From Micromonospora kangleipakensis (lineage in GTDB: Bacteria; Actinomycetota; Actinomycetes; Mycobacteriales; Micromonosporaceae), in NCBI RefSeq assembly GCF_004217615.1, contig NZ_SHLD01000001.1, positions 1,922,001 through 1,986,000 on the forward strand: a DNA stretch of 64,000 bases. Direction: 5' to 3'. Shown in pieces: positions 1 through 11,168 of the stretch (position 1 is the first letter of the stretch; every line of letters begins with the position of its first letter). A program made the translations under genes and the position numbers. The notes beneath the pieces were generated by a model. That model had not been told where the DNA came from. It did not search any database and was given only the letters and a program-made list of their open reading frames with translations.

Positions 1-123
1 GCGTGCCAAGAGCGTGCCAGGTCGACGGGTGAGGTCCGGGAATTCGCGGGGACTGGCGGGGAGAGTCGAGGGGCTACCGCATGTCAGCGCCAGGCCAGGT
101 CAGCGAGAACCGAGAGAGCCCAC

Positions 124-170
124 CTGGCAGTGTGGGGGTCAGGGGTTCGAGTCCCCTCGGCTCCACCCTT
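124..170 (+). repeat. Left attachment-site repeat (tRNA 3'-end fragment)
   Basis: A 47-bp sequence beginning CTGGCAGTGTGG and ending CGGCTCCACCCTT recurs without mismatch at 6739-6785 in the same orientation. It contains a T-arm (AGGGG-TTCGAGT-CCCCT) and an acceptor 3' strand CGGCTCC-A-CC. The U at position 70 of the acceptor is the tRNA-Ala identity feature. No 5' half of a tRNA precedes it, so it is a tRNA-derived core (attL or attR), not a working tRNA. Site-specific tyrosine integrases commonly use tRNA 3' ends, and an integrase remnant lies 80 bp away. Confidence 0.85.
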
Positions 171-172
171 CA

Positions 173-214
173 CGACAAAGGGCGTTCGTCAGACATGACG
201 GACGCCCTTTGTCG
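173..214 (+). terminator. Strong hairpin after the left tRNA-end repeat
   Basis: Two 18-nt arms (173-190 and 197-214) pair at 17 of 18 positions around a 6-nt loop, and TTCC follows. A tRNA gene is normally followed by such a terminator. A diverged hairpin with the same GGGCGTTCGTC left arm follows the right repeat, so homology between the two ends runs past the 47-bp core. Confidence 0.7.
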
Positions 215-228
215 TTCCTGACGGCGGA

Positions 229-248
229 AGTAGCCAAGCGAGTAGCCA
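229..248 (+). repeat. Paired AGTAGCCA repeats, likely integrase arm sites (left)
   Basis: AGTAGCCA occurs at 229-236 and 241-248, 12 bp start to start, between the left core repeat and the integrase stop codon. The same pair with the same 12-bp spacing and orientation lies inside the right end at 6634-6653. Paired short repeats flanking a core site are typical arm-type binding sites of tyrosine integrases. This reading is inferred from position and symmetry. Confidence 0.55.
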
Positions 249-251
249 CGG

Positions 252-506
252 TTACTTCCCCTCGCCCCACAGCACGTTCTCCATCGCGTCGGCAGCCTGG
301 ACGAGCTGAGTGGGCATGACGTGGCTGTAGATGTTCATGGTGACGCCGATCTGGGAGTGACCGAGGAGTTCCATGAGAACCCGGGCGGGCACGCCCTGGG
401 CGAGTAGGAGCGTGGCGGCAGTGTGCCGCAGGTCATGAAGACGGACCTTCGGCACTAGGCGAGTCGATCCGTCAGCGGCCGTTCCGGACTCTCTGTGACG
501 GGTTGG
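252..506 (-). pseudogene. int: Tyrosine recombinase/integrase, C-terminal remnant
   Basis: Only about 84 C-terminal residues of a phage-type integrase remain. The box II motif HDLRHTAATLLLAQG, the LGHSQIGVTMNIYSH segment and the nucleophile Tyr in NIYSH are visible. Reading upstream, natural integrase sequence (DGSTRLVPKVRLHDL) continues to about 500, where an in-frame TGA at 507-509 closes the frame. The N-terminal arm-binding domain and the first catalytic Arg are absent, so the fragment cannot be active. It abuts the permease promoter, so a deletion probably joined the two. A short product could start at GTG 455, but I treat it as a relic of the enzyme that inserted the island. Confidence 0.85.
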
Positions 507-518
507 TCACAGTAGGAT
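494..518 (+). promoter_or_regulatory. Palindromic operator with adjacent -10-like element
   Basis: TGTGAC-GGGTTG-GTCACA (494-511) is a perfect 6-bp inverted repeat with a 6-bp centre, followed at once by TAGGAT (513-518), a plausible -10 box. It lies just upstream of the permease gene and overlaps the broken integrase end. The 8-bp gap between TGTGA and TCACA is longer than the 6 bp of a CRP site, so the regulator is unknown. Confidence 0.4.
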
Positions 519-654
519 GCTGTCGTTGACTGGGAGAAGGTGATTCGCCCTGAGCACGACTGATCCAGCAGCCTCTGTCACGCCGGCCATCCCGGCCAGC
601 GCCGACGACCAGCCCGCCGTCCACGACAGACAAGGTCGGGTCGGCTCGACCGAG

Positions 655-1581
655 GTGCTGTGCTTCCTGCTCATCCTCCTTGGCGTGCTGCATCGGCAGG
701 TCGGCGCGCTGGTGGCGGATCCGCGTCTGCAGACCTGGCTGACCGTGTTCGTGTCGGTGATGGTGCAGGCGGTGCCGTTCCTCGTCTTCGGGGTGGTCCT
801 GTCGGCCGTCATCGCGGTGTTCGTACCCCGGTCGTTCTGGGCCCGGGCGCTGCCCCGCCACCCGGCCGTCGCCGTGCCGGTCGCCGGCGTGGCGGGCGTG
901 GTGCTGCCCGGCTGCGAGTGCGGCTCTGTACCGATCGCGTGTTCGCTGATCCGCTGCGGCGTCACTCCCGCTGCGGCGTTGGCGTTCCTGCTCGCCGCGC
1001 CGGCGATCAACCCGATCGTGCTCACCGCCACGGCGGTCGCCTTCCCCCGCAACCCGGAGATGGTGGCGGCTCGAGGCGGGGCCAGTCTGCTGGTCGCCCT
1101 GTTGATGGGCTGGTTGTGGCTGCGGTTGGGCCGCACTGAATGGATCCGTCTGCCGCATCGCGCCCACCTCGACGGGCTGCCCCGGATGGCGGCGTTCTGG
1201 ACCGCCTGCCGGCACGACGTCATCCACGCCGGCGGATTTCTCGTCCTGGGCGCCATGGCCGCGGCAACGATCAACGTTGCCATGCCCCAGCGGCTCCTGC
1301 ACGACCTGGCCGCCCGGCCGGTGCTGTCGGTGCTCGCCCTCGCCACGCTGGCGGTGCTGCTGTCCATCTGCTCCGAAGCCGACGCGTTCGTCGCCGCATC
1401 GCTGTCCCAGTTCTCCCTGACCGCTCGACTGGCCTTCCTCGTGGTCGGCCCGATGGTGGATTTGAAGCTCGTGTCCATGCAGGCCGGAATCTTCGGACGG
1501 CGGTTCGCCGCCCGCTTCGCCCCGGCCACCTTCGCCCTCGCCGTGCTCGTCGCGGCCGCAGTCGGGACGGTGGTCTGGTGA
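655..1581 (+). CDS. YraQ/UPF0718-type permease
   Basis: Polytopic membrane protein of about 308 residues with roughly eight hydrophobic segments. It carries the family signatures GCECGSVPIACSLI near residue 83 and AAPAINPIVLTA near residue 113. YraQ/ArsP_1 permeases move metals or metalloids, or act with a TIGR03943 partner; the substrate here cannot be read from sequence. GTG 655 is the first standard start, but it sits almost at the first membrane segment and has no Shine-Dalgarno. A GGAGAAGG at 533-540 would suit an in-frame CTG at 550, giving a 35-residue cytoplasmic N-tail. The last codons overlap the next gene through GTGA, so the two are translationally coupled. Confidence 0.85.
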   Translation: MLCFLLILLGVLHRQVGALVADPRLQTWLTVFVSVMVQAVPFLVFGVVLSAVIAVFVPRSFWARALPRHPAVAVPVAGVAGVVLPGCECGSVPIACSLIRCGVTPAAALAFLLAAPAINPIVLTATAVAFPRNPEMVAARGGASLLVALLMGWLWLRLGRTEWIRLPHRAHLDGLPRMAAFWTACRHDVIHAGGFLVLGAMAAATINVAMPQRLLHDLAARPVLSVLALATLAVLLSICSEADAFVAASLSQFSLTARLAFLVVGPMVDLKLVSMQAGIFGRRFAARFAPATFALAVLVAAAVGTVVW

Positions 1582-2300
1582 GTCGCGGCACCCAGGCGGT
1601 CGTGCTGGTCTTCCTCGGCGGCGCGATCCTGCGCGCCAGCGTCACCGACCTGTACCTGCGCTACGTCAAGCAGGGGCTGCGACCGTTCCTCATCGCCGCC
1701 GGGGTCGTGCTGGTCGTCGCCGCGGTCGTGGCCCTCGTGCAGGAACTGCGCTATCTGAACCGACCCGAGGCCGAGCCGGACGACGACGGGCACGGACACG
1801 GCCGGTCGGGCCCCATGGTCGGCTGGCTGTTGCTGCTGCCGGCGATCGCGCTGCTGTTCGTCGTTCCACCGGCGTTGGGCGCCGACACCGCGTCACGCGC
1901 CGGCTCCGCCCTGACCGACAATCGGGACGTCGCCTACCCGCCGCTGCCGCCCGGTGATCCGGCTGACCTCACCCTCCTCGACTACGGCTACCGCGCCGTC
2001 TACGACAAGGGACGCACCCTGAGCGGCCGGCGCATCAAGCTCACCGGCTTCCTCGCCACCGGCCCGGACGGCCAGCCCATGCTCGTGCGTATCGTGCTGT
2101 CCTGCTGCGCCGCCGACGGCGTCCCGATCAAGATCGGGCTACGCGGTGACGTTCCTGGCGTCCCGGACAACACATGGATGCGGGCCATCGGCCGGTGGAT
2201 CCCGCACACCGCAAAGGATCCTGTCAATGACGCCGACGTCCCCTACTTCCAAGTGGAGGACTGGCAGAAGATTACCGCCCCCGTTGAGCCATACGAGTAG
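1578..2300 (+). CDS. TIGR03943/YcgQ-type membrane protein
   Basis: A 240-residue protein with two to three N-terminal membrane segments, an acidic His-rich linker (DDDGHGHGR near residue 70) and a soluble C-terminal half with the conserved CCAAD motif (Cys176, Cys177, Asp180). Proteins of this family are usually encoded beside a YraQ-type permease, as here, and are thought to form a metal-related transporter pair. The GTG start at 1578 overlaps the permease stop. The His and Cys residues are possible metal ligands, which is inference. A translation begun further upstream in another frame would be only the shadow of the permease gene. Confidence 0.85.
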   Translation: MSRGTQAVVLVFLGGAILRASVTDLYLRYVKQGLRPFLIAAGVVLVVAAVVALVQELRYLNRPEAEPDDDGHGHGRSGPMVGWLLLLPAIALLFVVPPALGADTASRAGSALTDNRDVAYPPLPPGDPADLTLLDYGYRAVYDKGRTLSGRRIKLTGFLATGPDGQPMLVRIVLSCCAADGVPIKIGLRGDVPGVPDNTWMRAIGRWIPHTAKDPVNDADVPYFQVEDWQKITAPVEPYE

Positions 2301-2528
2301 ACGCGGACCGTTACACGGGCGGTTCCGGCACCGCGACCGCAACGACGAACGGCACGATCGCCGTCGTCCTGGACTGGCGGCCATCCGGCTGTTGGCGATC
2401 ATGCCCCGCTAGGTAGTGGGTGCAACACATCGCAACACACCCGCGGCTTCCTTGGCAGCCTAATGAAAATGGGTTCCAATTGCACTAGCTGCCGGCTCAC
2501 AGAGGGCCAGCGGAGAAGGAGGTTAGAG

Positions 2529-2921
2529 ATGTCGCTCGATGTGTCCGCTGCACTGTTGGAGCGCGCTGAGCGCGGGTCGGTCACCGACGAGGAGTTCGTG
2601 GCCTGCGTGCGTGAATCGCTGCCCTACGCCTGGCAGGTGGTGTCCGGGCTCAGCGCGGACCTGGCTGCCGGGGGTGGCGATTTTGCCGACCACGCCGTGC
2701 CGCCGCCCAGCGAGGCCGAACGCGGACAACTGTTGCGTGCCCTGGCCAGCGATGCGATCCGGGGCGGTCTGGAACGACACTTCGGGGTGCGTTTGGCGTT
2801 CCAGAACTGCCACCGGGTGGCAGCCTTCGCGCTAACGGCGGTGCAGTCCCCGGCATACCGAGAGTTCGTCTCGCCTGCTGGACAGTTGCGGAACCAGTCA
2901 CCGGAACTACGCAACTGCTAG
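2529..2921 (+). CDS. SCO5389-like conserved protein
   Basis: A 130-residue soluble protein beginning MSLDVSAALLERAERG, with a conserved core SLPYAWQVVSGL, a PPPSEAERGQLLRALASDAIRG segment and RHFGVRLAFQNCHRVA. I recognise it as close to the actinobacterial SCO5389 family, whose function is not known. ATG 2529 is chosen over an in-frame ATG 66 bp upstream because GGAGAAGGAGG at 2513-2523 gives a strong ribosome binding site. A TGAAAATG half-site at 2463 resembles half of a Zur box, but its other half is poor. Family copies normally sit in the core genome, so this one is probably an extra island-borne paralog. Confidence 0.75.
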   Translation: MSLDVSAALLERAERGSVTDEEFVACVRESLPYAWQVVSGLSADLAAGGGDFADHAVPPPSEAERGQLLRALASDAIRGGLERHFGVRLAFQNCHRVAAFALTAVQSPAYREFVSPAGQLRNQSPELRNC

Positions 2922-3230
2922 GCGGCTGGCGGCCGGGCGGGCGAATTCAGCCTTGGCCCGGCCGCCAAGCTGTGGCGACAGCGCTGCCGTCTCAGTCCTC
3001 ATCCAGCCATCAAGAGATCGACCCTCGACCGCTGACAGTGAGAGATGCCGAGAGGTGTTCCGCAGGCCGAGCGTGGTTCGCGCAGGTAGTCCGGCCTCAT
3101 GAGGGGCCGGCGTCAGCAACAAGTCAGCGAGACGCGCGACAACGACCGACAACCGCTGGTACAGGACAGCAAGGTCCTTGACTCCAACGCCAGTTGCCGA
3201 CATTGATCGGCAAGCGTCCACTGCACCGAG
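2922..3230. other. Non-coding stretch inside the island
   Basis: No open frame here shows family resemblance or a ribosome binding site. The sequence ends in a tRNA-like fragment at 3231-3276, so this is probably junction DNA between two parts of the island. The downstream bases to 3351 are also non-coding and follow the convergent HupE-type gene. Confidence 0.5.
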
Positions 3231-3276
3231 CCGCCTTTGCAAGGCAGGGGTTAGGGTTCAAGTCCCCTGGGCTCCG
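3231..3276 (+). pseudogene. tRNA-Ala(TGC)-like 3'-half remnant
   Basis: The sequence has an anticodon stem-loop with loop TTTGCAA (anticodon TGC) and near-paired stems CCGCC/GGCAG. A variable region, a T-loop TTCAAGT followed by CCCCT, and an acceptor strand GGGCTCCG come next. The T-stem has two mismatches and no 5' acceptor or D-arm exists upstream, so it cannot be a working tRNA. It resembles the tRNA-derived cores at both island ends and probably marks an old integration junction. Confidence 0.5.
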
Positions 3277-3351
3277 CGACGGCATGGCGCGGGACTGTCG
3301 GGCTTCGCCTGAAATCTGACCCCATGGTTCCGGGTCGGGCAACCCATAGAT

Positions 3352-4149
3352 TCAGGACCAGGGCCAGGGCGAGAGCCAGGAATGTACGGCGGTGGCGTCA
3401 GCCTGGATCGGTCGGAGCGCATGGCCGCCGGAGGCGAGGGCCAGCACCGACGCGGCGACCACACCGGCTGCCACTAGGGTGCCGTGGGCAAGGCGCGGGT
3501 CGCGCAGCCTGGGGATGTAGTGGCTGAGCACGTCACCGAGCATGAACATGCCCAGCACCGCGATCAGCTGGCCGATCTCCACGCCGATGTTGAAGGCCAG
3601 CACCCGGGGGATCATCCCGTCGGAGGGCAGCCCGATTGCCTGCAGCCGGGTGGCCAGGCCCAGGCCGTGCATGAGCCCGAAGGCCAGCACCGTGGCGGCG
3701 AACCACGTCCAGTCCTTCGGCCGGCCTCGCAGGCCGACCACTCCGACGAACACGAGGCTCAACGCCACAATCATGTCGACGAGGACTGGGGTGACCTGCC
3801 AGTCGGCGACGGTGGCGGTGAACAGGGTGATGCTGTGCCCGAGCGCAAAGAGCGAGATCAGCTTGGCCGCCCGCCGGATCTCGCCGGCGAGGAGCAGGAT
3901 GCCGCCGACGAAGAGGAGGTGATCCCAGCCGGCGAGCATGTGGGTGTTGCCCAACCAGACGAACCCGCCGACCGTGTCGGTCGGCCCACCGACGGAGTGT
4001 GCCCATGCAGGTTGCGGCAAGACCAGGACCGCGGCCACGAGGGTGGCCGCGATGATCGCACCTCGTCGCGCCGCAGCCGGCATCCGGGTCCACTGCCTCA
4101 GCCGTGCTGGGTCCTCAGCAAGTCGCTGCGCGGTCGCGTCTGGTTCCAT
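3352..4149 (-). CDS. HupE/UreJ-type membrane protein
   Basis: About 265 residues. A hydrophobic export or anchor segment ending LPQPAWAHS is followed by GNTHMLAGWDHLLFVGGILLL and FALGHSITLFTATV, then by the FGLMHGLGLATRL segment and three more membrane spans. This His-rich pattern (H-x3-G-x2-H, GHS, MHG) matches the HupE/UreJ_2 family, associated with nickel or other metal uptake. A sigma-70-like promoter sits so that transcription would begin at or next to ATG 4149, suggesting a leaderless message. An internal ATG at 4083 would give a more classical signal peptide but has no ribosome binding site. It lies downstream of the anti-sigma gene, on the same strand. Confidence 0.75.
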   Translation of the reverse strand: MEPDATAQRLAEDPARLRQWTRMPAAARRGAIIAATLVAAVLVLPQPAWAHSVGGPTDTVGGFVWLGNTHMLAGWDHLLFVGGILLLAGEIRRAAKLISLFALGHSITLFTATVADWQVTPVLVDMIVALSLVFVGVVGLRGRPKDWTWFAATVLAFGLMHGLGLATRLQAIGLPSDGMIPRVLAFNIGVEIGQLIAVLGMFMLGDVLSHYIPRLRDPRLAHGTLVAAGVVAASVLALASGGHALRPIQADATAVHSWLSPWPWS

Positions 4150-4156
4150 AAAAACT

Positions 4157-4184
4157 GCTATATGGTCCGATTTTGCCCAATCAA
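4157..4184 (-). promoter_or_regulatory. Sigma-70-like promoter for the HupE-type gene
   Basis: Read on the minus strand, TTGATT (4184-4179) and TATAGC (4162-4157) are separated by 16 bp in an unusually AT-rich patch. The -10 box ends 7 bp before ATG 4149, so the transcript would start at the initiation codon. Confidence 0.5.
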
Positions 4185-4223
4185 GCGCCACCGCCGGGGC
4201 GGCAGATGCGGGGCCGTGGGGTG

Positions 4224-5006
4224 TCACGCGGCGCGACGGTGTACAGCTTGCGCTGAGTATGGCTGCTGCGGCGGCAGCAGCCGCAGCGGGACCGATGGCT
4301 GCTCGGTGTCGTCGAGTTGGGCGCGCCACCGGGGCGGCTGCGGCTGACCCTGTTGCGGTGGTGGCCCACCGGGCCGCAGGCCGGGGCGGGACAGCAACAC
4401 GGTGATCAGGTAGCCGCCCAGCAGGAAGCCGTGACTGACGAGCCGGGTCACCGCGACCTGCGCGGTGATCAGGTCGTTCACCGACAGGAGCACCAGGGTC
4501 GCGACGAAGACGCTGAGCATTGGCAGCAGACCGGCAGGCGGGGTCCGCCGCAGAGCCACGAGCAGGAAGCCTGCCCCGACCGCGACGTTCCACGCCGCGG
4601 ACTCGTGCCACAGGTGCTGCCCGGCGTGCAGGTGATCGGTGACCGCTCCCGTGCCGACCTGAGCAAGTCCCAGCACAAGTTGTACCGCGCCGAGCAGGCC
4701 CAGCGCGCCACGGAGCCCGGCCACCAGCCGGCCGCGCCAGGCCACCGAGGGCCGCCATCGCGGCCGGCGGACCGGCGGCGGTGCGGCGGCGAGGATCGCA
4801 TCGGTCAGATCGGGCAGCGACGTCACGACCTGCGTACGGGTCCGCCGGGTCACCGCAGCCGCCGCATCGAACCACCTTCGGCAGTTCTCACACGATTTCA
4901 GGTGCTCTTCGGCCCCAGCTCGCTCCGCCGGCGTCTCCTCACCGTCGAGTTGGGCCGACAGGATCTCCCGCCACTGCTCACACCGCATATACCGATAGTC
5001 GTTCAC
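4224..5006 (-). CDS. Anti-sigma factor with zinc-finger (ZAS) domain
   Basis: A 260-residue protein. Its N-terminus (residues 9-45) has Cys9 and the H-x3-C-x2-C motif (His35, Cys39, Cys42) of zf-HC2 anti-sigma factors. Four or so membrane segments follow between residues 85 and 205, then a Pro/Gln-rich tail. ZAS proteins hold an ECF sigma factor inactive and release it on redox or metal signals. The gene lies 57 bp downstream of the ECF sigma gene on the same strand. The GTG at 5006 is used; an in-frame ATG six codons later is possible. The several membrane spans are more than the usual single anchor. Confidence 0.8.
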   Translation of the reverse strand: MNDYRYMRCEQWREILSAQLDGEETPAERAGAEEHLKSCENCRRWFDAAAAVTRRTRTQVVTSLPDLTDAILAAAPPPVRRPRWRPSVAWRGRLVAGLRGALGLLGAVQLVLGLAQVGTGAVTDHLHAGQHLWHESAAWNVAVGAGFLLVALRRTPPAGLLPMLSVFVATLVLLSVNDLITAQVAVTRLVSHGFLLGGYLITVLLSRPGLRPGGPPPQQGQPQPPRWRAQLDDTEQPSVPLRLLPPQQPYSAQAVHRRAA

Positions 5007-5063
5007 CGCCCCTGCCTGGTTCCCGACGCCGCCAGATGGGTTGAACTCTCCTACCTGCCGCCC

Positions 5064-5618
5064 TCAGCCGGCACGGCCTGCCCGCCGGTCGAGCTGACCC
5101 TCAACCGCGACGACCAGGTCCTCGCGGGCGCGGGCGACCCGGGAACGGATCGTCCCGACCGGGCACCCACACACCTGCGCCGCCTCCGCATACGACAGCC
5201 CGAGAACCTGCGTGGCGATGAACGCCTCCCGCCGCTCCGGCGACAGTCCCAGCAGCAACCGGCCCAACACCACCTCGTCCTCGAACCGCCCACCACCGGC
5301 CGGCGGCTCCCACTCGCCGAGCGGAGTCGTTCGGGGACGCGTCGCGGCCGCGCGCAGGTGGTCAGCGGCTACCCGCCGGGCGATGCCGAACAACCACGTC
5401 CGCGCCGATGACCGACCCTCGAACCGCGGCAGACTGCGCATCGCGCGCAGGTAGGTCTCCTGCACTAGATCATCAGTGTCCGACGAACCGAGCAGGTGGT
5501 GCAGGAACCGCCAGGTCTGGTGCTGGGTCGCCCGCACGAAGGCCGCCAATGCCTGTTGGTCCCCGCTGCCCGCAGCCAGTGCCCACGCCGTGACCTGCTC
5601 GTCCTCGCCTGTCGCCAC
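5064..5618 (-). CDS. ECF RNA polymerase sigma factor
   Basis: A 184-residue ECF sigma factor with region 2 (TDDLVQETYLRAMRSLPRFEG, then ARTWLFGIARRVAADHLR) and region 4 (LSPERREAFIATQVLGLSYAEAAQVCG, then VGTIRSRVARARE). GTG 5618 has GGAGG five bases upstream; this fits the usual length better than starts up to 5729. It is followed by its anti-sigma factor and is divergent from ycnI, which has an ECF-like promoter. The context suggests control of the island's metal genes. Autoregulation is likely but not shown. Confidence 0.88.
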   Translation of the reverse strand: MATGEDEQVTAWALAAGSGDQQALAAFVRATQHQTWRFLHHLLGSSDTDDLVQETYLRAMRSLPRFEGRSSARTWLFGIARRVAADHLRAAATRPRTTPLGEWEPPAGGGRFEDEVVLGRLLLGLSPERREAFIATQVLGLSYAEAAQVCGCPVGTIRSRVARAREDLVVAVEGQLDRRAGRAG

Positions 5619-5808
5619 CACAACCTCCGGTCCGGTCGCCTGCCCGCGGCGGTACCCGACTGTCCACAGCCAGCCACCACCATTCTCCCTTACGACAAGA
5701 CGTAGTAGAACGGCGTTGACCTTTGTCACAGTAATGCGCGCGAAGAGCCCAGTGTGCTCCCTTGATCGATTCGTCTGCGGTGAGTACGAGACCCGGTTGA
5801 AGGACGTC

Positions 5809-5835
5809 GGGAACTATCCGCGCGTGACGGACGAC
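5809..5835 (+). promoter_or_regulatory. Possible ECF-type promoter before ycnI
   Basis: GGGAACT (5809-5815) resembles an ECF -35 box. A CGAC at 5832-5835 lies about 16-17 bp downstream, with ycnI starting 58 bp further on. Match and spacing fit an ECF promoter, but the -10 box is short and degenerate. Confidence 0.35.
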
Positions 5836-5893
5836 TAGCAGAAGGTGCCGGAAACGCCCGGCACCTAGATTGAGAAAATGAGGACGCCCTGAC

Positions 5894-6610
5894 ATGACCC
5901 GGTCCCTGCTCACGCGAGCGGCCACCATCGCCGCTACTGTCGCCGCCATCACCCTCGGGGTGGCTGGCCCGGCATCAGCACACGTCACCGTCAACCCGAA
6001 GGAGGCGACGCAGGGCGGCTACACCAAGGTCACCTTCCGGGTGCCGAACGAGAAGGACAACGCCAACACCACCAAGGTCGAGGTCAACCTTCCCACCAGC
6101 TCGCCCATCGCGTCGGTGTCGCTGAAGCCGCTGCCCGGGTGGACCGCACAGACCGAGACGTCCAAGCTCGCAACGCCGATCAAGAGCGACGACGGGGAGA
6201 TCACCGAGGCGGTCACGAAGATCACCTGGACCGCTGACGCCAACTCGGCGATCAAGCCGGGGCAGTTCCAGGAGTTCGACGTCTCCCTCGGTCCGCTGCC
6301 GGAGACCGACCAGCTCGTGTTTAAGGCCCTGCAGACCTACTCCGACGGTGACGTGGTGCGGTGGATCGAGGAGCCGAGCAGCGGCGCTGAGCCGGAGCAC
6401 CCCGCGCCCGTGCTGAAGCTGGCGAAGAAGGACGCCGCCACGCCCGCCGCCGCCCCCGTGGCCGCAGCCGCGACGAGCAAGGACAGCGACAAGGACAGCA
6501 ACAAGGACAGCAACAACGGCACTGCCTACGGCATCGCCGGCATCCTGCTCGGTCTCGCCGGCCTCGTCGCCGGTCTGTTTGCTTACCGCCGCGCCGCACA
6601 GCCCCGCTAA
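5894..6610 (+). CDS. ycnI: YcnI-family (DUF1775) copper-binding protein
   Basis: A 238-residue exported protein. A signal peptide ends at PASA, so the mature protein begins with His30 (HVTVNPKEATQGG), the single-histidine brace that binds copper in YcnI proteins. The DUF1775 domain spans about residues 30-175 and includes the RWIEEP motif. An Ala/Pro and Lys/Asp/Ser-rich linker leads to a C-terminal membrane anchor (GIAGILLGLAGLVAGLFAY) and basic tail. It should act outside the membrane as a copper chaperone or acquisition factor. It is the last gene before the right island end and divergent from the ECF/anti-sigma pair. Confidence 0.9.
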   Translation: MTRSLLTRAATIAATVAAITLGVAGPASAHVTVNPKEATQGGYTKVTFRVPNEKDNANTTKVEVNLPTSSPIASVSLKPLPGWTAQTETSKLATPIKSDDGEITEAVTKITWTADANSAIKPGQFQEFDVSLGPLPETDQLVFKALQTYSDGDVVRWIEEPSSGAEPEHPAPVLKLAKKDAATPAAAPVAAAATSKDSDKDSNKDSNNGTAYGIAGILLGLAGLVAGLFAYRRAAQPR

Positions 6611-6633
6611 CCAGATCGGGTGAGGCCGAGTCG

Positions 6634-6653
6634 AGTAGCCACCCGAGTAGCCA
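6634..6653 (+). repeat. Paired AGTAGCCA repeats, likely integrase arm sites (right)
   Basis: AGTAGCCA occurs at 6634-6641 and 6646-6653, again 12 bp apart and in the same orientation as at 229-248. The pair lies 86 bp inside the right core repeat, in the 366-bp gene-free stretch between ycnI and the GH15 gene. Confidence 0.55.
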
Positions 6654-6738
6654 AGGCGGTGCATCCTGACGGACCGGCGCGTACCTTGGCGGACCCGTCG
6701 AGCAGCGCCGGGCGACATTGACCCGGCCTCGCCCGCTT

Positions 6739-6785
6739 CTGGCAGTGTGGGGGTCAGGGGTTCGAGTCCCCTCGGCTCCACCCTT
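6739..6785 (+). repeat. Right attachment-site repeat (tRNA 3'-end fragment)
   Basis: Exact 47-bp copy of 124-170, with T-arm and acceptor 3' strand but no tRNA 5' half. It marks the right island boundary; chromosomal-looking genes begin at 6978. Confidence 0.85.
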
Positions 6786-6792
6786 GATGACC

Positions 6793-6820
6793 AGGGCGTT
6801 CGTCGGAAACGACGGGCGCT
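6793..6820 (+). terminator. Hairpin after the right tRNA-end repeat
   Basis: AGGGCGTTCGTC pairs with GACGGGCGCT around a short GGAAAC loop, and CTTCGTCGTTT follows. It is a weaker, diverged version of the hairpin at 173-214. Confidence 0.45.
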
Positions 6821-6977
6821 CTTCGTCGTTTCCCGACCGGCAGGTAGCCGTGTGGATCCGGCCCGCGTCACCGGGCCGATTGTGGCTCCTCGTTCCGCTT
6901 CAACCCCGGGTGCGAGGTGTGCCCCGCCTGTCTGCGGGTAGTCGCCGCAGTCGGTGCGGCGAGAGCGGGGAGGTCTG

Positions 6978-8804
6978 GTGGACTCGTACCCTGCTGTGGA
7001 GGACCACGGCTTGATCGGCGACCTGCAGACCGCGGCGCTGGTGAGCAGAGACGGGACGTTGGACTGGTTCTGCGCTCCCCGCTTCGACTCGCCGAGCCTC
7101 TTCGCTAGCCTGCTCGATCGGCACAAGGGTGGGCACTTCCAGATCTCACCTGATGGCGTCGACTACCGGAGCAGACAGCTGTATGTGCCTGGAACGCCGA
7201 TTCTGATCACCCGCTTCCTCAGCGCGGACGGCGTGGCTGAACTCGTGGATTTCATGCCCGTTGCGGGAGATTGCGCCACAGACCGCCACCGCCTGGTCCG
7301 CGTGATCCGGATCGTCCGCGGCACGATGCGGTTCCGCGTCGAGTGCCAACCGCGGTTCAACTACGGGCGCGATCCGCACGAACTCGACGAGTATCGGGAC
7401 GGCGTCGTGTTCCGCGGTCCCGGCCTCACCCTCACCCTGAACCCCGTCCGCGACGTCGAGATCGGTGTCGACACGTACCTCCGGCAAACCACCGAGGGCG
7501 TGTGTTTGACCGGCACGTTCCAAGAGGGCGAAATCGGTGGAGTCGTGCTGGAAACAGCGTCGCCTGACCCGCCACGCGTGGTCAGCTCGGGTGAGGTGTG
7601 GGAGATGTTCGAGCAGACCCGCGACTTCTGGCGGCGCTGGCTCGGCCGCTCCTGCTACACCGGCCGCTGGCGGGAGATGGTCGAGCGGTCCGCCCTGACG
7701 CTCAAGCTGATGACGTACGCGCCGACCGGCGCGCTGATCGCCGCCCCCACCGCCGGGCTGCCGGAGCAGATCGGCGGCGAGCGTAACTGGGACTACCGCT
7801 ACACCTGGGTCCGGGACGCGTCGTTCTCGGTGCACGCGCTGCTCGGCCTGGGCTTCACAGACGAGGCCGGCCGCTATCTGGAGTGGGTCAACGACCGCAT
7901 CCGCGAATCGGCGGCCAACGGCGTGGGGCTTCAGATCATGTACCGGGTCGACGGCTCACCCGATCTCACCGAGGAGGTGCTCGACCACTTCGAGGGTTAC
8001 CGCGGATCGAGCCCGGTGCGCGTGGGCAACAGCGCGGCCGGCCAACTGCAACTCGACATCCACGGTGAGGCGATGAGCGCGCTGCACCTCGCCGACAGGC
8101 ACGGGTTTCAGGGCTCACACCAGGGGTGGCTGAACGTGCGGCAACTGGTGAACTGGCTCTGCGACCACTGGGACCAACCCGAGGACGGGATCTGGGAGAC
8201 CCGCTCCGGCCGGCAGGATTTCACCTACGGGCGGCTGATGTGCTGGGTGGCGCTCGACCGCGCCATCCGCCTCGCGAACCGCCGTGGTCTGCCGGCCGAC
8301 ACCACCCGCTGGGCGAATGCCCGCAACGACATCTACGAACAGATCATGGCGCGCGGCTTCCACCCCGGACGCGGTGCCTTCGTGCAGCACTACGCGACCG
8401 ACGTCCTGGACGCGGCGCTGCTCACCATGCCCGGCGTCGGATTCGTGTCGCCGACCGACCCGATGTGGCAGTCGACCCTGCGGGCCATGGACGCCGAACT
8501 CGTCTCCGACAGCCTCGTCTACCGGTACGAGCCGGCCGCCTCACCCGACGGCCTGCGCGGCAACGAGGGCACCTTCAGCATGTGCACCTTCTGGTATGTC
8601 CAGGCCCTCGCGCAGTCCGGTCGGCTCGACGAAGCCCGACTGACCTTCGAGAAGATGCTCACGTACAGCAGCGACCTCGGCCTCTACTCCGAGGAGATCG
8701 CGCCCACCGGCGAGCAGGTCGGCAACTTCCCGCAGGCGTTCAGCCACCTCTCGCTGATCAGCACCGCCGTCAACCTCGACCGACTCCTCGACGACCGCCC
8801 CTGA
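6978..8804 (+). CDS. Glycoside hydrolase family 15 protein (glucoamylase/trehalase-like)
   Basis: A 608-residue cytoplasmic protein. An N-terminal beta-rich domain starts IGDLQTAALVSRDGTLDWFC and an (alpha/alpha)6 catalytic domain starts near GGERNWDYRYTWVRDASFS. A likely catalytic acid lies in EDGIWETRSG and a base in EEIAPTGEQVGNFPQAFSH, both typical of GH15. Actinobacterial members include alpha-glucan hydrolases and trehalases, and sequence alone does not decide which. GTG 6978 is preceded by GGGGAGG; an in-frame start 24 bp earlier lacks this. It is monocistronic, ending at a strong terminator. Confidence 0.9.
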   Translation: MDSYPAVEDHGLIGDLQTAALVSRDGTLDWFCAPRFDSPSLFASLLDRHKGGHFQISPDGVDYRSRQLYVPGTPILITRFLSADGVAELVDFMPVAGDCATDRHRLVRVIRIVRGTMRFRVECQPRFNYGRDPHELDEYRDGVVFRGPGLTLTLNPVRDVEIGVDTYLRQTTEGVCLTGTFQEGEIGGVVLETASPDPPRVVSSGEVWEMFEQTRDFWRRWLGRSCYTGRWREMVERSALTLKLMTYAPTGALIAAPTAGLPEQIGGERNWDYRYTWVRDASFSVHALLGLGFTDEAGRYLEWVNDRIRESAANGVGLQIMYRVDGSPDLTEEVLDHFEGYRGSSPVRVGNSAAGQLQLDIHGEAMSALHLADRHGFQGSHQGWLNVRQLVNWLCDHWDQPEDGIWETRSGRQDFTYGRLMCWVALDRAIRLANRRGLPADTTRWANARNDIYEQIMARGFHPGRGAFVQHYATDVLDAALLTMPGVGFVSPTDPMWQSTLRAMDAELVSDSLVYRYEPAASPDGLRGNEGTFSMCTFWYVQALAQSGRLDEARLTFEKMLTYSSDLGLYSEEIAPTGEQVGNFPQAFSHLSLISTAVNLDRLLDDRP

Positions 8805-8809
8805 CGCGA

Positions 8810-8848
8810 AACGCCCTGGATCGGGAGATGATCCCGGTCCAGGGCGTT
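8810..8848. terminator. Bidirectional terminator between GH15 and DUF4173 genes
   Basis: AACGCCCTGGA (8810-8820) and TCCAGGGCGTT (8838-8848) form an 11-bp perfect stem, with CGGGA/TCCCG extending inside. It lies between two convergent genes. Confidence 0.75.
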
Positions 8849-8870
8849 CCTCGACCCCGCCCGACGGGCG

Positions 8871-11168
8871 TCAGCGCGGACGGCGGCTCTTGGGCAGGTC
8901 GAACTGATCCGCGGCCCGGCAGTCCTTCGGCCCGCCGACGGCGTCCTTGCCGATCCGGTCGAGGGCCTGACGGGCCCGGTACCGGCCCAGGTTCCAGGCG
9001 TACCAGGGGTCGGGCTCGGCCAGGTCGTCGTCGATCCAGCTCAGCGTGCACCGGCGGACCGGGTCGGGGAGCTTCGTCAGGGCCGGCGTGGCGTCGGCGG
9101 AGAGCGCCCGCAGGTACCAGGCGTCGATCTTGCCGCTCTGCTTGTACCGGGCGATGTTGCGCTGGGCGGCGTAGTCCTCCGGGTTGAGCACGGCCAGGCT
9201 GAGCAGCATCACCACGGCCAGCCCCACGGTCGCGCCGGGGATCCACCGGCCCCGCCACCGGACCCCGGCGGCCAGGACCATCAGGAAGACCGCCCCGAGC
9301 AGCAGCTCGAACGCCATCACGAAGATCCGCTCGCCGGTGAAGCTGTAGACCTTCTGGTACGTGTACATGCGCGACAGCGCCGACACCACGATCACCACGC
9401 TGAGCGCGCTGAGCAGGCCGAGCAGGACGCGCAGCGCGGTGCGCTCGACCTTGCGCTCCCGGCTGGCCCAGCGGCTCACCGCACCGAGCACCGCCAGGGT
9501 CAGCAGGGTGACGAAGAGCAGCTGCCAGAACCCGCTGCGGGCGTACTCGGAGTAGCTGAGGCCGGCAACCTTCTGGACGTGCCGCTGGCCACCGAAGAGC
9601 ACGGTGAACTGCACGACGACGAAGCCGGCGAAGAGCAGCGTCAGCGCGCCGATGGCCGGGCCCCACTCCAGCAGGCCGAGGTTGCGGCTGCTCGGCTTGT
9701 CCACGGTGGAGAGGTCCGGCGGGGCGGCCAGCGTGTAGACGGCGGCGACCGCGATCAGCGCGCCCAGCCCGGCCAGGAAGATCCAGCGGAACACCGTACC
9801 GATGTTGATCTCCGGGACGATCGCGCCGAGGACCTCGGAGAAGGCCGCGTCGGCCGAGGAGAGCAGGGTGCCGAAGACCAGCAGCACCACCACGGTCGCG
9901 ACCACCGAACCGGCGACCCGGCGGACCATGCCCGTGTCCGGGGAGGCCGTGATGTGCCGGCGTACCCAGGGCAGGCCGCGGAGCGCCGCGAACGGCGCGG
10001 CCACCAGGCTGAACAGGATCGAGCGGACCAACCGGCCGCCCACGATGGCCAGCGTCGCGCAGGCGAGCGCGCCGAGGACGCAGAACGTCACCAGCCACCA
10101 GGCGTTGCGGAAGGCGAGCACGGAGAGCAGCGCCAGGGCCGCCACCGCCCAGCCGCCGCGGATCAGGCGTTCGGTGCGGGGCAGCTCGGCCGTGCCCCGC
10201 CGGACCGCGGCGACGCCGGCGGTCAGCACGAGCCAGCCGAGGAACCAGCCGATGCCGGTCCGGCTCAGCGGAACGAAGAACGCGATCCCGAGCGCGCCGG
10301 CGAGCACCGCGAGCGGGGTGGCCCGGCCGGTGGCCTGCTTCGGCCCCGGCCACCGGGCGCCGAGGAACGAGGTCCGGGGCGTCGGCGGGCGGGGCGTCCA
10401 GGTCGCGCCCGGCTGCGGCGGGAAGGTCGCCCAGGGCGGTGCCGGCTGCGCGGCGTACGGCGGCATCGGGGCCCCGGGGGCGACGTGCGGCTGCGGCGCG
10501 GCCCCGCCCGGGACGGGACGCTGCTGCGGCACGGTCGGCGCGGGCCCGGACGGCGTCGCGGGCTGCGTCGAACCGGGGGATGTCGGTGCGGGCGCGGAGG
10601 AGTCCGCGTCGCCCGAGCCCGCCGCCGCGCTGACGGCGGTGGGCTGCGCAGACGCGCCGGTGGCGGGCGAGGAGACCTCGGCCGTGGCAGTTTCCCGGCC
10701 GTTCGTGCCGGTCTGCTCGGCCGAGCCGTCCGCGCCCGCTGCCGGGGCACCAGGGGTCGGGTGCTCGGCTTCGGCGACGCCCGCAGGCGCGGACGCCTCC
10801 GGCCCGACCGGCACCGGCGCGGCGACCTCGGTCGCACCGGGCGTCACGACCTGCGCGGGGATCACCCGGGCCGGAGCGCCGGCCGTGGCCTGCTGGGCGA
10901 CGGGGACCGGGGCGGCCGGCCCCTCGCCCGCGGGGGCCGGCACCAGCGGCAGAAAGACGGCGTATCCGCGGGTGCCGGCCGGGACGGTGACCGGGATCGC
11001 CCAGGCCGGCTGGCCCTCCTGACCGGGCCACACCAGCCCCGGCGGCGCCCCGTCTGTAGTGGGCATGACGAGCAGATAGGGCGTGGCGTCGGCGGGGATG
11101 CCGCCCTCCGAAGGCCCGGCCGCCGCGGCGGTCCGGGGAGAATCTGGCGCCGATGACGGCTCGGGCAC
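8871..11168 (-). CDS. DUF4173/DUF4153-type large membrane protein
   Basis: About 765 residues. A Pro/Ala-rich, low-complexity cytoplasmic N-third includes a short YLLVMP...GYAVFLPL region. From about residue 270 there are a dozen or so membrane spans including the family hallmark FGTLLSSADAAFSEVLG, and a soluble tail ends SWIDDDLAEPDPWYAWNLG. Family function is unknown. AAGGAG lies six bases before GTG 11168, so that start is preferred over GTG 11186, which has no ribosome binding site. It converges on the GH15 gene; upstream is a 226-bp gap after the DUF11 gene. Confidence 0.8.
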   Translation of the reverse strand: MPEPSSAPDSPRTAAAAGPSEGGIPADATPYLLVMPTTDGAPPGLVWPGQEGQPAWAIPVTVPAGTRGYAVFLPLVPAPAGEGPAAPVPVAQQATAGAPARVIPAQVVTPGATEVAAPVPVGPEASAPAGVAEAEHPTPGAPAAGADGSAEQTGTNGRETATAEVSSPATGASAQPTAVSAAAGSGDADSSAPAPTSPGSTQPATPSGPAPTVPQQRPVPGGAAPQPHVAPGAPMPPYAAQPAPPWATFPPQPGATWTPRPPTPRTSFLGARWPGPKQATGRATPLAVLAGALGIAFFVPLSRTGIGWFLGWLVLTAGVAAVRRGTAELPRTERLIRGGWAVAALALLSVLAFRNAWWLVTFCVLGALACATLAIVGGRLVRSILFSLVAAPFAALRGLPWVRRHITASPDTGMVRRVAGSVVATVVVLLVFGTLLSSADAAFSEVLGAIVPEINIGTVFRWIFLAGLGALIAVAAVYTLAAPPDLSTVDKPSSRNLGLLEWGPAIGALTLLFAGFVVVQFTVLFGGQRHVQKVAGLSYSEYARSGFWQLLFVTLLTLAVLGAVSRWASRERKVERTALRVLLGLLSALSVVIVVSALSRMYTYQKVYSFTGERIFVMAFELLLGAVFLMVLAAGVRWRGRWIPGATVGLAVVMLLSLAVLNPEDYAAQRNIARYKQSGKIDAWYLRALSADATPALTKLPDPVRRCTLSWIDDDLAEPDPWYAWNLGRYRARQALDRIGKDAVGGPKDCRAADQFDLPKSRRPR

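Follow-up and report, generated by a model that had tools for sequence, protein, structure and literature searches.

Cis-mobilizable elements (CIMEs) of streptococcal integrative and conjugative elements (ICEs) are stretches of cargo without recombination genes that are bounded by attachment (att) sites and adjoin an ICE with the same site. The signature of the actinomycete counterpart (AICE) is given in the excerpt of PMC3218068 as an integrase, a replication initiator (Rep; RepSA, RepAM or Prim-Pol) and an FtsK-type transfer protein (Tra). The excerpts of PMC9513070 describe AICE accretion arrays at a Streptomyces tRNA-Arg gene, with defective AICEs (DAICEs) and different integrases in one array, and discuss cis-mobilization in Streptomyces arrays as likely, with few actinobacterial examples. 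Here, we analyzed a 6.6-kb unit of metal-related genes at positions 124 to 6785 of a 64,000-nucleotide stretch of Micromonospora kangleipakensis (assembly GCF_004217615.1, contig NZ_SHLD01000001.1). The window is this whole stretch, G000:C1:1922001-1986000, where G000 is the source genome and other G-numbers are the other genomes compared. An original prediction, made from the letters alone, had seen in the unit a transferable metal package between tRNA-derived repeats. We conclude with good confidence that it is a cis-mobilizable or defective AICE remnant, one member of an accretion array behind a tRNA-Ala(GGC) gene, whose two cargo modules meet at a tRNA-Ala(UGC) fragment. The arrangement itself is a known kind of remnant; the composite history is what makes it instructive.

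Like a CIME, the unit is an att-bounded remnant without working recombination genes, beside an element that uses the same att. Unlike in streptococci, the neighbor is of the FtsK/RepSA type and not a type IV secretion ICE, and cis-mobilization is here putative. With the Streptomyces DAICE arrays, as far as the excerpts of PMC9513070 describe them, the locus shares a single tRNA with tandem elements whose integrases differ, identical direct repeats, a traB-less remnant and possible cis-mobilization; it differs from them in that rep and most of int are missing from the Micromonospora remnant as well and that its cargo contains the fragment of a second tRNA.

A Tandem Array at the tRNA-Ala(GGC) Gene

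The boundaries of the unit and the sequences adjoining them are as follows.

1..123, no strand: right inner end of the neighboring AICE, homologous in G118 (window 1-430, 77.5%) and G086 (window 1-142, 76.9%)
124..170, + strand: att copy 1, from the tRNA-Ala(GGC) anticodon loop to the 3' end plus 3 nt; boundary between AICE and remnant
6739..6785, + strand: att copy 2; distal boundary of the remnant
6786..6860, no strand: scar that resembles, at 84% over 38 nt, the left inner end beyond copy 1, with one degenerate arm repeat

The two att copies are exact 47-bp direct repeats within a surrounding 58-nt alignment of 93% identity. Allowing up to three mismatches, the 38-nt repeat core has three sites in the whole 7.27-Mb single-contig genome, all of them exact. 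The third 47-bp copy, likewise exact, starts at 1901943, with its core at 1901949, and precedes window copy 1 by 20.2 kb. It forms the 3' half of a genuine tRNA-Ala(GGC) gene (1901912-1901986) plus 3 nt. As in defective AICEs and CIMEs, each boundary of the remnant is thus an att copy that matches the 3' end of the tRNA exactly. The original prediction had described identical 47-bp repeats with T-arm and acceptor sequence; the identity stands, whereas the extent does not, because the repeat reaches from the anticodon loop to 3 nt beyond the tRNA. The objection that such a repeat might be common elsewhere in the genome does not hold, since the core is absent outside the three array copies. Window copy 1 was rejected as the integration tRNA: ARAGORN found zero tRNA genes within the 64-kb window, and the tRNA gene lies 20 kb upstream.

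The 20.2 kb between the tRNA gene and window copy 1 (1901943 to 1922170) hold an element that shares its att with the remnant. Flanked by att sites in the tRNA, it encodes a 378-aa tyrosine integrase adjoining the tRNA (PF00589), a RepSA replication initiator (PF20199, E 3.8e-141) and a transfer protein of the FtsK/SpoIIIE type (PF01580), the three parts of the AICE signature, together with small open reading frames (ORFs). It is apparently a complete AICE, and, as it sits between the tRNA and copy 1, the 6.6-kb unit is the second element of a tandem array. Past copy 2, the scar suggests the trace of an older and largely lost third element. The array would then run from the tRNA through the intact-looking 20-kb AICE, att, the remnant and att to the older scar and a GH15 trehalase-like gene.

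Other observations concern the same elements and related sites. An HNH-type protein on the AICE (G000:C1:1918181-1918975) matches PADLOC candidate defence effectors (PDC-M68A, E 7.8e-27, residues 29-134 of 264); four proteins of the remnant unit gave zero PADLOC matches. The other tRNA-Ala genes seen, UGC (locus G000:C1:818373-822890) and CGC (locus 1548698-1552210), have second 3' copies 4.4 and 3.4 kb downstream, respectively, with integrase-like remnants near them, making decayed arrays at three tRNA-Ala genes.

Ends of the Remnant and Its Possible Mobility

Between the att copies lie three traces of the recombination system.

230..248, + strand: paired GTAGCCA-N5-GTAGCCA at the left inner end, a probable integrase arm-type site
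252..455, - strand: remnant C-terminus of a tyrosine integrase, 67 codons (Pfam/NCBIfam)
6635..6653, + strand: paired GTAGCCA-N5-GTAGCCA at the right inner end, a probable arm-type site found likewise in G032 and G086

The paired motif has two exact matches in the window and zero in shuffled sequences, and in the other loci scanned it was found only adjoining Ala(GGC) att sites or att arms (G032, G118 and G086). Judged by position, the pairs are probably the integrase arm sites of one attP. The matching inner repeats at both sides, together with the matching core sites, support the 6.6 kb having the ends of a single element, which would have been inserted via the integrase that now survives as a C-terminus. 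This integrase retains approximately the last 43 of 172 integrase-domain positions; relatives of it stand beside the same att twice in G118 and at one locus in G087. A scan of eight unit proteins found neither rep nor tra, and the 67-aa tail is the sole integrase piece, in agreement with the claim that only an integrase C-terminus remains; the loss of functional genes is that of a defective element.

Because the unit's own integrase is destroyed, self-transfer is doubtful, and so is the word transferable when applied to the unit alone. Movement of the remnant would probably require an integrase, for instance that of the AICE, that recognizes the shared att sites and excises AICE and remnant together. 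Here, the evidence is divided. The AICE and remnant integrases share 42% identity over 45 aa, which makes excision by the AICE enzyme uncertain and weighs against mobilization. If no integrase in the cell recognizes the ends, the unit would be stranded, a fossil rather than a mobilizable element, and both the distinctness of the two integrases and the decay of the remnant enzyme fit that alternative. However, AICE and unit have an identical core site, in G120 the same repeat stands on both sides of a full-length integrase 83% identical to that of the AICE, and the excerpts of PMC9513070 report different integrases at a single Streptomyces tRNA. We regard stranding as a serious possibility that falls somewhat short of being probable and retain the reading of a cis-mobilizable or defective AICE remnant.

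The Insertion Site across Micromonospora

The 28-nt repeat core (at most one mismatch) was found in 149 of 151 genomes of the genus: as a single copy in 121, as two or more copies in 28 (some of these far apart or on separate contigs) and not at all in 2. We compared 13 repeat sites in 13 other genomes, reading 12-20 kb at each (12 include the tRNA, the G060 stretch does not). None of the 13 holds a homologue of the unit cargo (E <= 1e-5), while the G118 site held integrase remnants. It is therefore not the case that all relatives carry the same genes at this locus without the repeats, a possibility raised against the original prediction, and the variable tRNA site and the absence of the cargo at the 13 other sites support an integrated, repeat-bounded unit.

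The flanks are well conserved around differing contents. In G032, the left and right flanks are 92.6 and 94.3% identical, and a 4.9-kb LtrA/protease element ends in the same right inner arm. G147 (flanks 92.5 and 92.8%) has a K+ transporter gene (KUP) and no second repeat ahead of the GH15 gene, with a one-mismatch repeat copy on another contig. G118 has an array of its own at the site (left flank 82.3%, GH15 gene 77.7%). The tRNA-Ala(GGC) gene is a genus-wide insertion hotspot with variable contents beside near-identical flanks. The base composition is 67.3% GC for the AICE, 68.0 and 69.0% for the unit halves and 67.7% for GH15, with flanks at 75.5 and 73.9%.

One finding counts against our reading. 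The comparison with relatives that the original prediction had proposed yielded cargo-free sites, but none of them was a strictly clean empty site sharing the right flank. The G147 site is not pristine, having the transporter gene and a degenerate arm between the tRNA and GH15; KUP is absent from the other 11 tRNA stretches tested, so there is no sign of its being the ancestral neighbor.

6954..8804, + strand: GH15 trehalase-like gene, adjoining the distal repeat on its right in three genomes (G000, G032 and G118)

This gene has four matches at E <= 1e-100 in the genome of M. kangleipakensis. The gene may be cargo of an older element, since its GC content and that of its third codon positions (GC3) are low, as in the island.

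The Internal tRNA Fragment and the Origin of the Cargo

The cargo consists of seven genes and a piece of a second tRNA.

550..1581, + strand: YraQ/ArsP_1 permease (Pfam ArsP_1), start probably CTG at 550
1578..2300, + strand: TIGR03943/DUF1980 partner protein (Pfam/NCBIfam)
2529..2921, + strand: SCO5389-family protein (Pfam KH_NucS_shadow; Pfam/NCBIfam)
3233..3275, + strand: tRNA-Ala(UGC) fragment, anticodon arm to acceptor, 43/44 nt; apparent joint between the cargo modules
3352..4149, - strand: HupE_UreJ_2 membrane protein (Pfam)
4224..5006, - strand: anti-sigma factor of the zinc-binding (ZAS) type (zf-HC2), HxxxCxxC (Pfam)
5064..5729, - strand: extracytoplasmic function (ECF) sigma factor, SigC-like (best model SigC; a SigC domain is the best solved-structure match)
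5894..6610, + strand: YcnI (DUF1775; Pfam), Cu(II) ligand residues aligned

Pfam and NCBIfam confirmed the predicted gene content, namely the YraQ/TIGR03943 pair, the HupE/UreJ-type protein, the ECF sigma/ZAS pair and YcnI. The tRNA fragment separates module A (YraQ, TIGR03943 and SCO5389) on the left from module B (HupE, ZAS, SigC-like sigma and YcnI) on the right. It matches a separate tRNA-Ala(UGC) gene at 818373-818446, from which it differs by one missing G. A decayed Ala(GGC) repeat was ruled out as its origin: over 22 nt, there are zero mismatches to Ala(UGC) vs. two to Ala(GGC). Judged by sequence, the 6.6-kb unit is a mosaic of two modules with at least two sources, and the modules would have met at the Ala(UGC) fragment.

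A parallel is found in G086, which has the closest sigma/ZAS pair (89.8% identity over 1582 nt). The pair lies on a RepSA-bearing element (G086:C2:2694484-2717854) between 45-bp tRNA-Val repeats 23.3 kb apart, along with two ycnI-type genes, a YcnI gene at 59% and a YcnI-like one that is more distant (44% over part), and a tRNA-Tyr fragment; sigma/ZAS cargo therefore occurs on such elements. G086 also holds the inner ends of both G000 elements, each continuing into the start of the Ala(GGC) att, over 14 nt at the remnant end and over 19 nt (one mismatch) at the AICE end. It appears that pieces pass between arrays at different tRNAs. Among plasmids, a search with module B gave 29 matching records, of which 0 cover at least 80% of the query.

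To look for further foreign tRNA pieces, we scanned 56 sequences totaling 1.02 Mb (the window and L005 overlap) against a library of 18 tRNA types, each represented by its 3' 45 nt. This incomplete library recovered four fragments foreign to the surrounding repeats: the one here, Tyr in G086, and Tyr and Arg in G124. Two matches labeled tRNA-Cys, in L091 and L092, fall on copies of the Ala(GGC) repeat and were therefore excluded from the count. The two G124 fragments, which lie 0.2-0.6 kb from HupE, are putatively foreign.

The fragment could also have been merely carried along by another event, unrelated to the joining of the modules. Its one-nucleotide deletion fits such an origin, and no arm repeat of the same type stands beside it; the latter leaves the fragment unproven as an active site and weighs against its role as a joint. 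On the other side, it spans the anticodon arm to the acceptor, the same extent as the repeats at other tRNA sites here, and comparable fragments, Tyr in G086 and both Tyr and Arg in G124, are 0.2-0.6 kb away from related cargo, although this proximity, seen with the incomplete library, may be due to chance. We consider the carried-along origin rather unlikely and keep the Ala(UGC) fragment as the apparent joint of the mosaic. The generalization that tRNA att fragments inside AICE-type elements act as joints, swapping cargo modules between arrays at different tRNAs, is a more speculative matter, to which we give little credence at present.

Predicted Functions of the Two Modules

YraQ orthologues of 89-94% identity are found at other loci in other species, and we fetched 13 YraQ loci from 10 genomes. 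GTG occupies the place of the CTG-550 start in G147. TIGR03943 follows yraQ in 12 of the 13 loci, the exception being G032, which keeps just the 5' part of yraQ; the partner protein reaches the curated cutoff of the TIGR03943 putative permease subunit (154.7 vs. 88.8 bits). YraQ itself missed the cutoff of the SO_0444 Cu/Zn efflux transporter model (71.8 vs. 300 bits), and a PDB sequence search with it found no relative. In nine of the loci, a Fur-family gene and/or ZnuA/ABC-3 genes lie within the stretch, and from these neighbors module A may serve zinc limitation. The SCO5389 family (E <= 1e-20) is present in 40 of 61 genomes, with the copy at 2529-2921 being the only one in G000. Genes of this family are also seen near yraQ and zinc-uptake genes in several species; they lie within ~6 kb of yraQ in G056, G009, G084 and G110, with a partial match in G127. 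Upstream of yraQ, the motif GRTCACNNTAGGATNC at window 505-520 is recognizable in 12 of 14 aligned yraQ upstream regions and is likely a promoter or operator; its specificity is partly circular, because the motif was trained on those 12 regions (G127b and G032, which do not align there, were excluded).

For module B, the sigma factor offers the first link to copper. According to the excerpt of PMC7924339, copper starvation is reportedly prevented by SigC in M. tuberculosis, and SigC provides the best curated model and the best solved-structure match for our protein. Unlike the M. tuberculosis factor as presented there, ours falls below the cutoff of the SigC equivalog (NCBIfam PRK09649, 194.6 vs. 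219 bits), and is labeled only SigC-like for that reason, and it has an adjacent ZAS anti-sigma. The second link is YcnI: His30, Glu53 and Trp157 align with the Cu(II) ligands of Bacillus subtilis YcnI (residues 1, 24 and 111 of the 7me6 chain), and the signal peptide would be cleaved before His30. The His/Glu/Trp copper ligands are thus conserved as in the B. subtilis ycnKJI copper uptake operon (excerpt of PMC8424229), from which the unit differs in having no YcnJ/YcnK-type gene and, instead, the ECF sigma/anti-sigma pair and HupE.

The partners of module B vary among genomes. Sigma and YcnI homologues are at most 7 kb apart in G118, G122, G009, G086 and a core locus of G000, and among the last 15 sigma matches listed (54-61% identity), 14 have a YcnI match within 3 kb, G063 being without. 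HupE (E <= 1e-30) occurs in 15 of 151 genomes, this one included. At four named HupE loci of other genera, a YcnI homologue (33-34%) lies just upstream in two (Planosporangium and Dactylosporangium); no sigma or YcnI homologue was found near HupE in 11 named Micromonospora loci or in three fetched with wide context. Taken together, module B may act in the uptake or handling of copper and be governed by the sigma factor, which would control this module only.

Some of these results weigh against the assigned functions. Four of the 13 YraQ loci have no zinc-type neighbor within the stretch. YcnI is absent within the 14-16 kb read at six of the seven closest sigma loci fetched (G149, G050, G126, G075, G089 and G038), all of them ranking just behind G086. 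For both modules, metal specificity is read from neighbors and homologues. The description of the cargo as metal related holds in part: YcnI keeps its copper ligands, and many relatives of the cargo stand in zinc or copper neighborhoods.

The original prediction of one package on one unit implies more, namely a selected and co-regulated set in which the ECF sigma and its zinc-binding anti-sigma sense metal and control all transporters. The cargo ORFs are without internal stops while the integrase is destroyed, the closeness of sigma and YcnI recurs as described above, zinc- and copper-type genes share one region in G009 and G056, and TGAC/GTCA-type inverted repeats precede yraQ and are also present in the interval that separates the sigma gene from ycnI. 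Against this, a foreign tRNA fragment splits the halves, which occur apart in other species and with other partners; the three wide-context Micromonospora HupE loci have neither sigma nor YcnI homologue; and the yraQ upstream motif is conserved among yraQ loci and was not found near the other cargo. A shared promoter motif for all cargo was looked for and none was found, and a riboswitch search of window 1-9000 (E <= 0.5) returned none, its sole line being a sub-threshold tmRNA match on att copy 2. We find a single co-regulated package quite improbable and prefer two modules of separate origin, A putatively for zinc limitation and B putatively for copper uptake or handling, on one AICE remnant.

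Implications

The locus shows a route by which copper and zinc genes enter the accessory cargo of actinomycetes, where the element decays while its cargo stays intact and its att sites are preserved. The apparently complete neighbor in the same array could carry the cargo of the remnant. With an internal tRNA fragment here and the same sigma/ZAS cargo at another tRNA, the shuffling of AICE cargo between sites becomes a testable question; if true, tRNA-fragment joints would give actinomycetes an integron-like way of shuffling their accessory genes.

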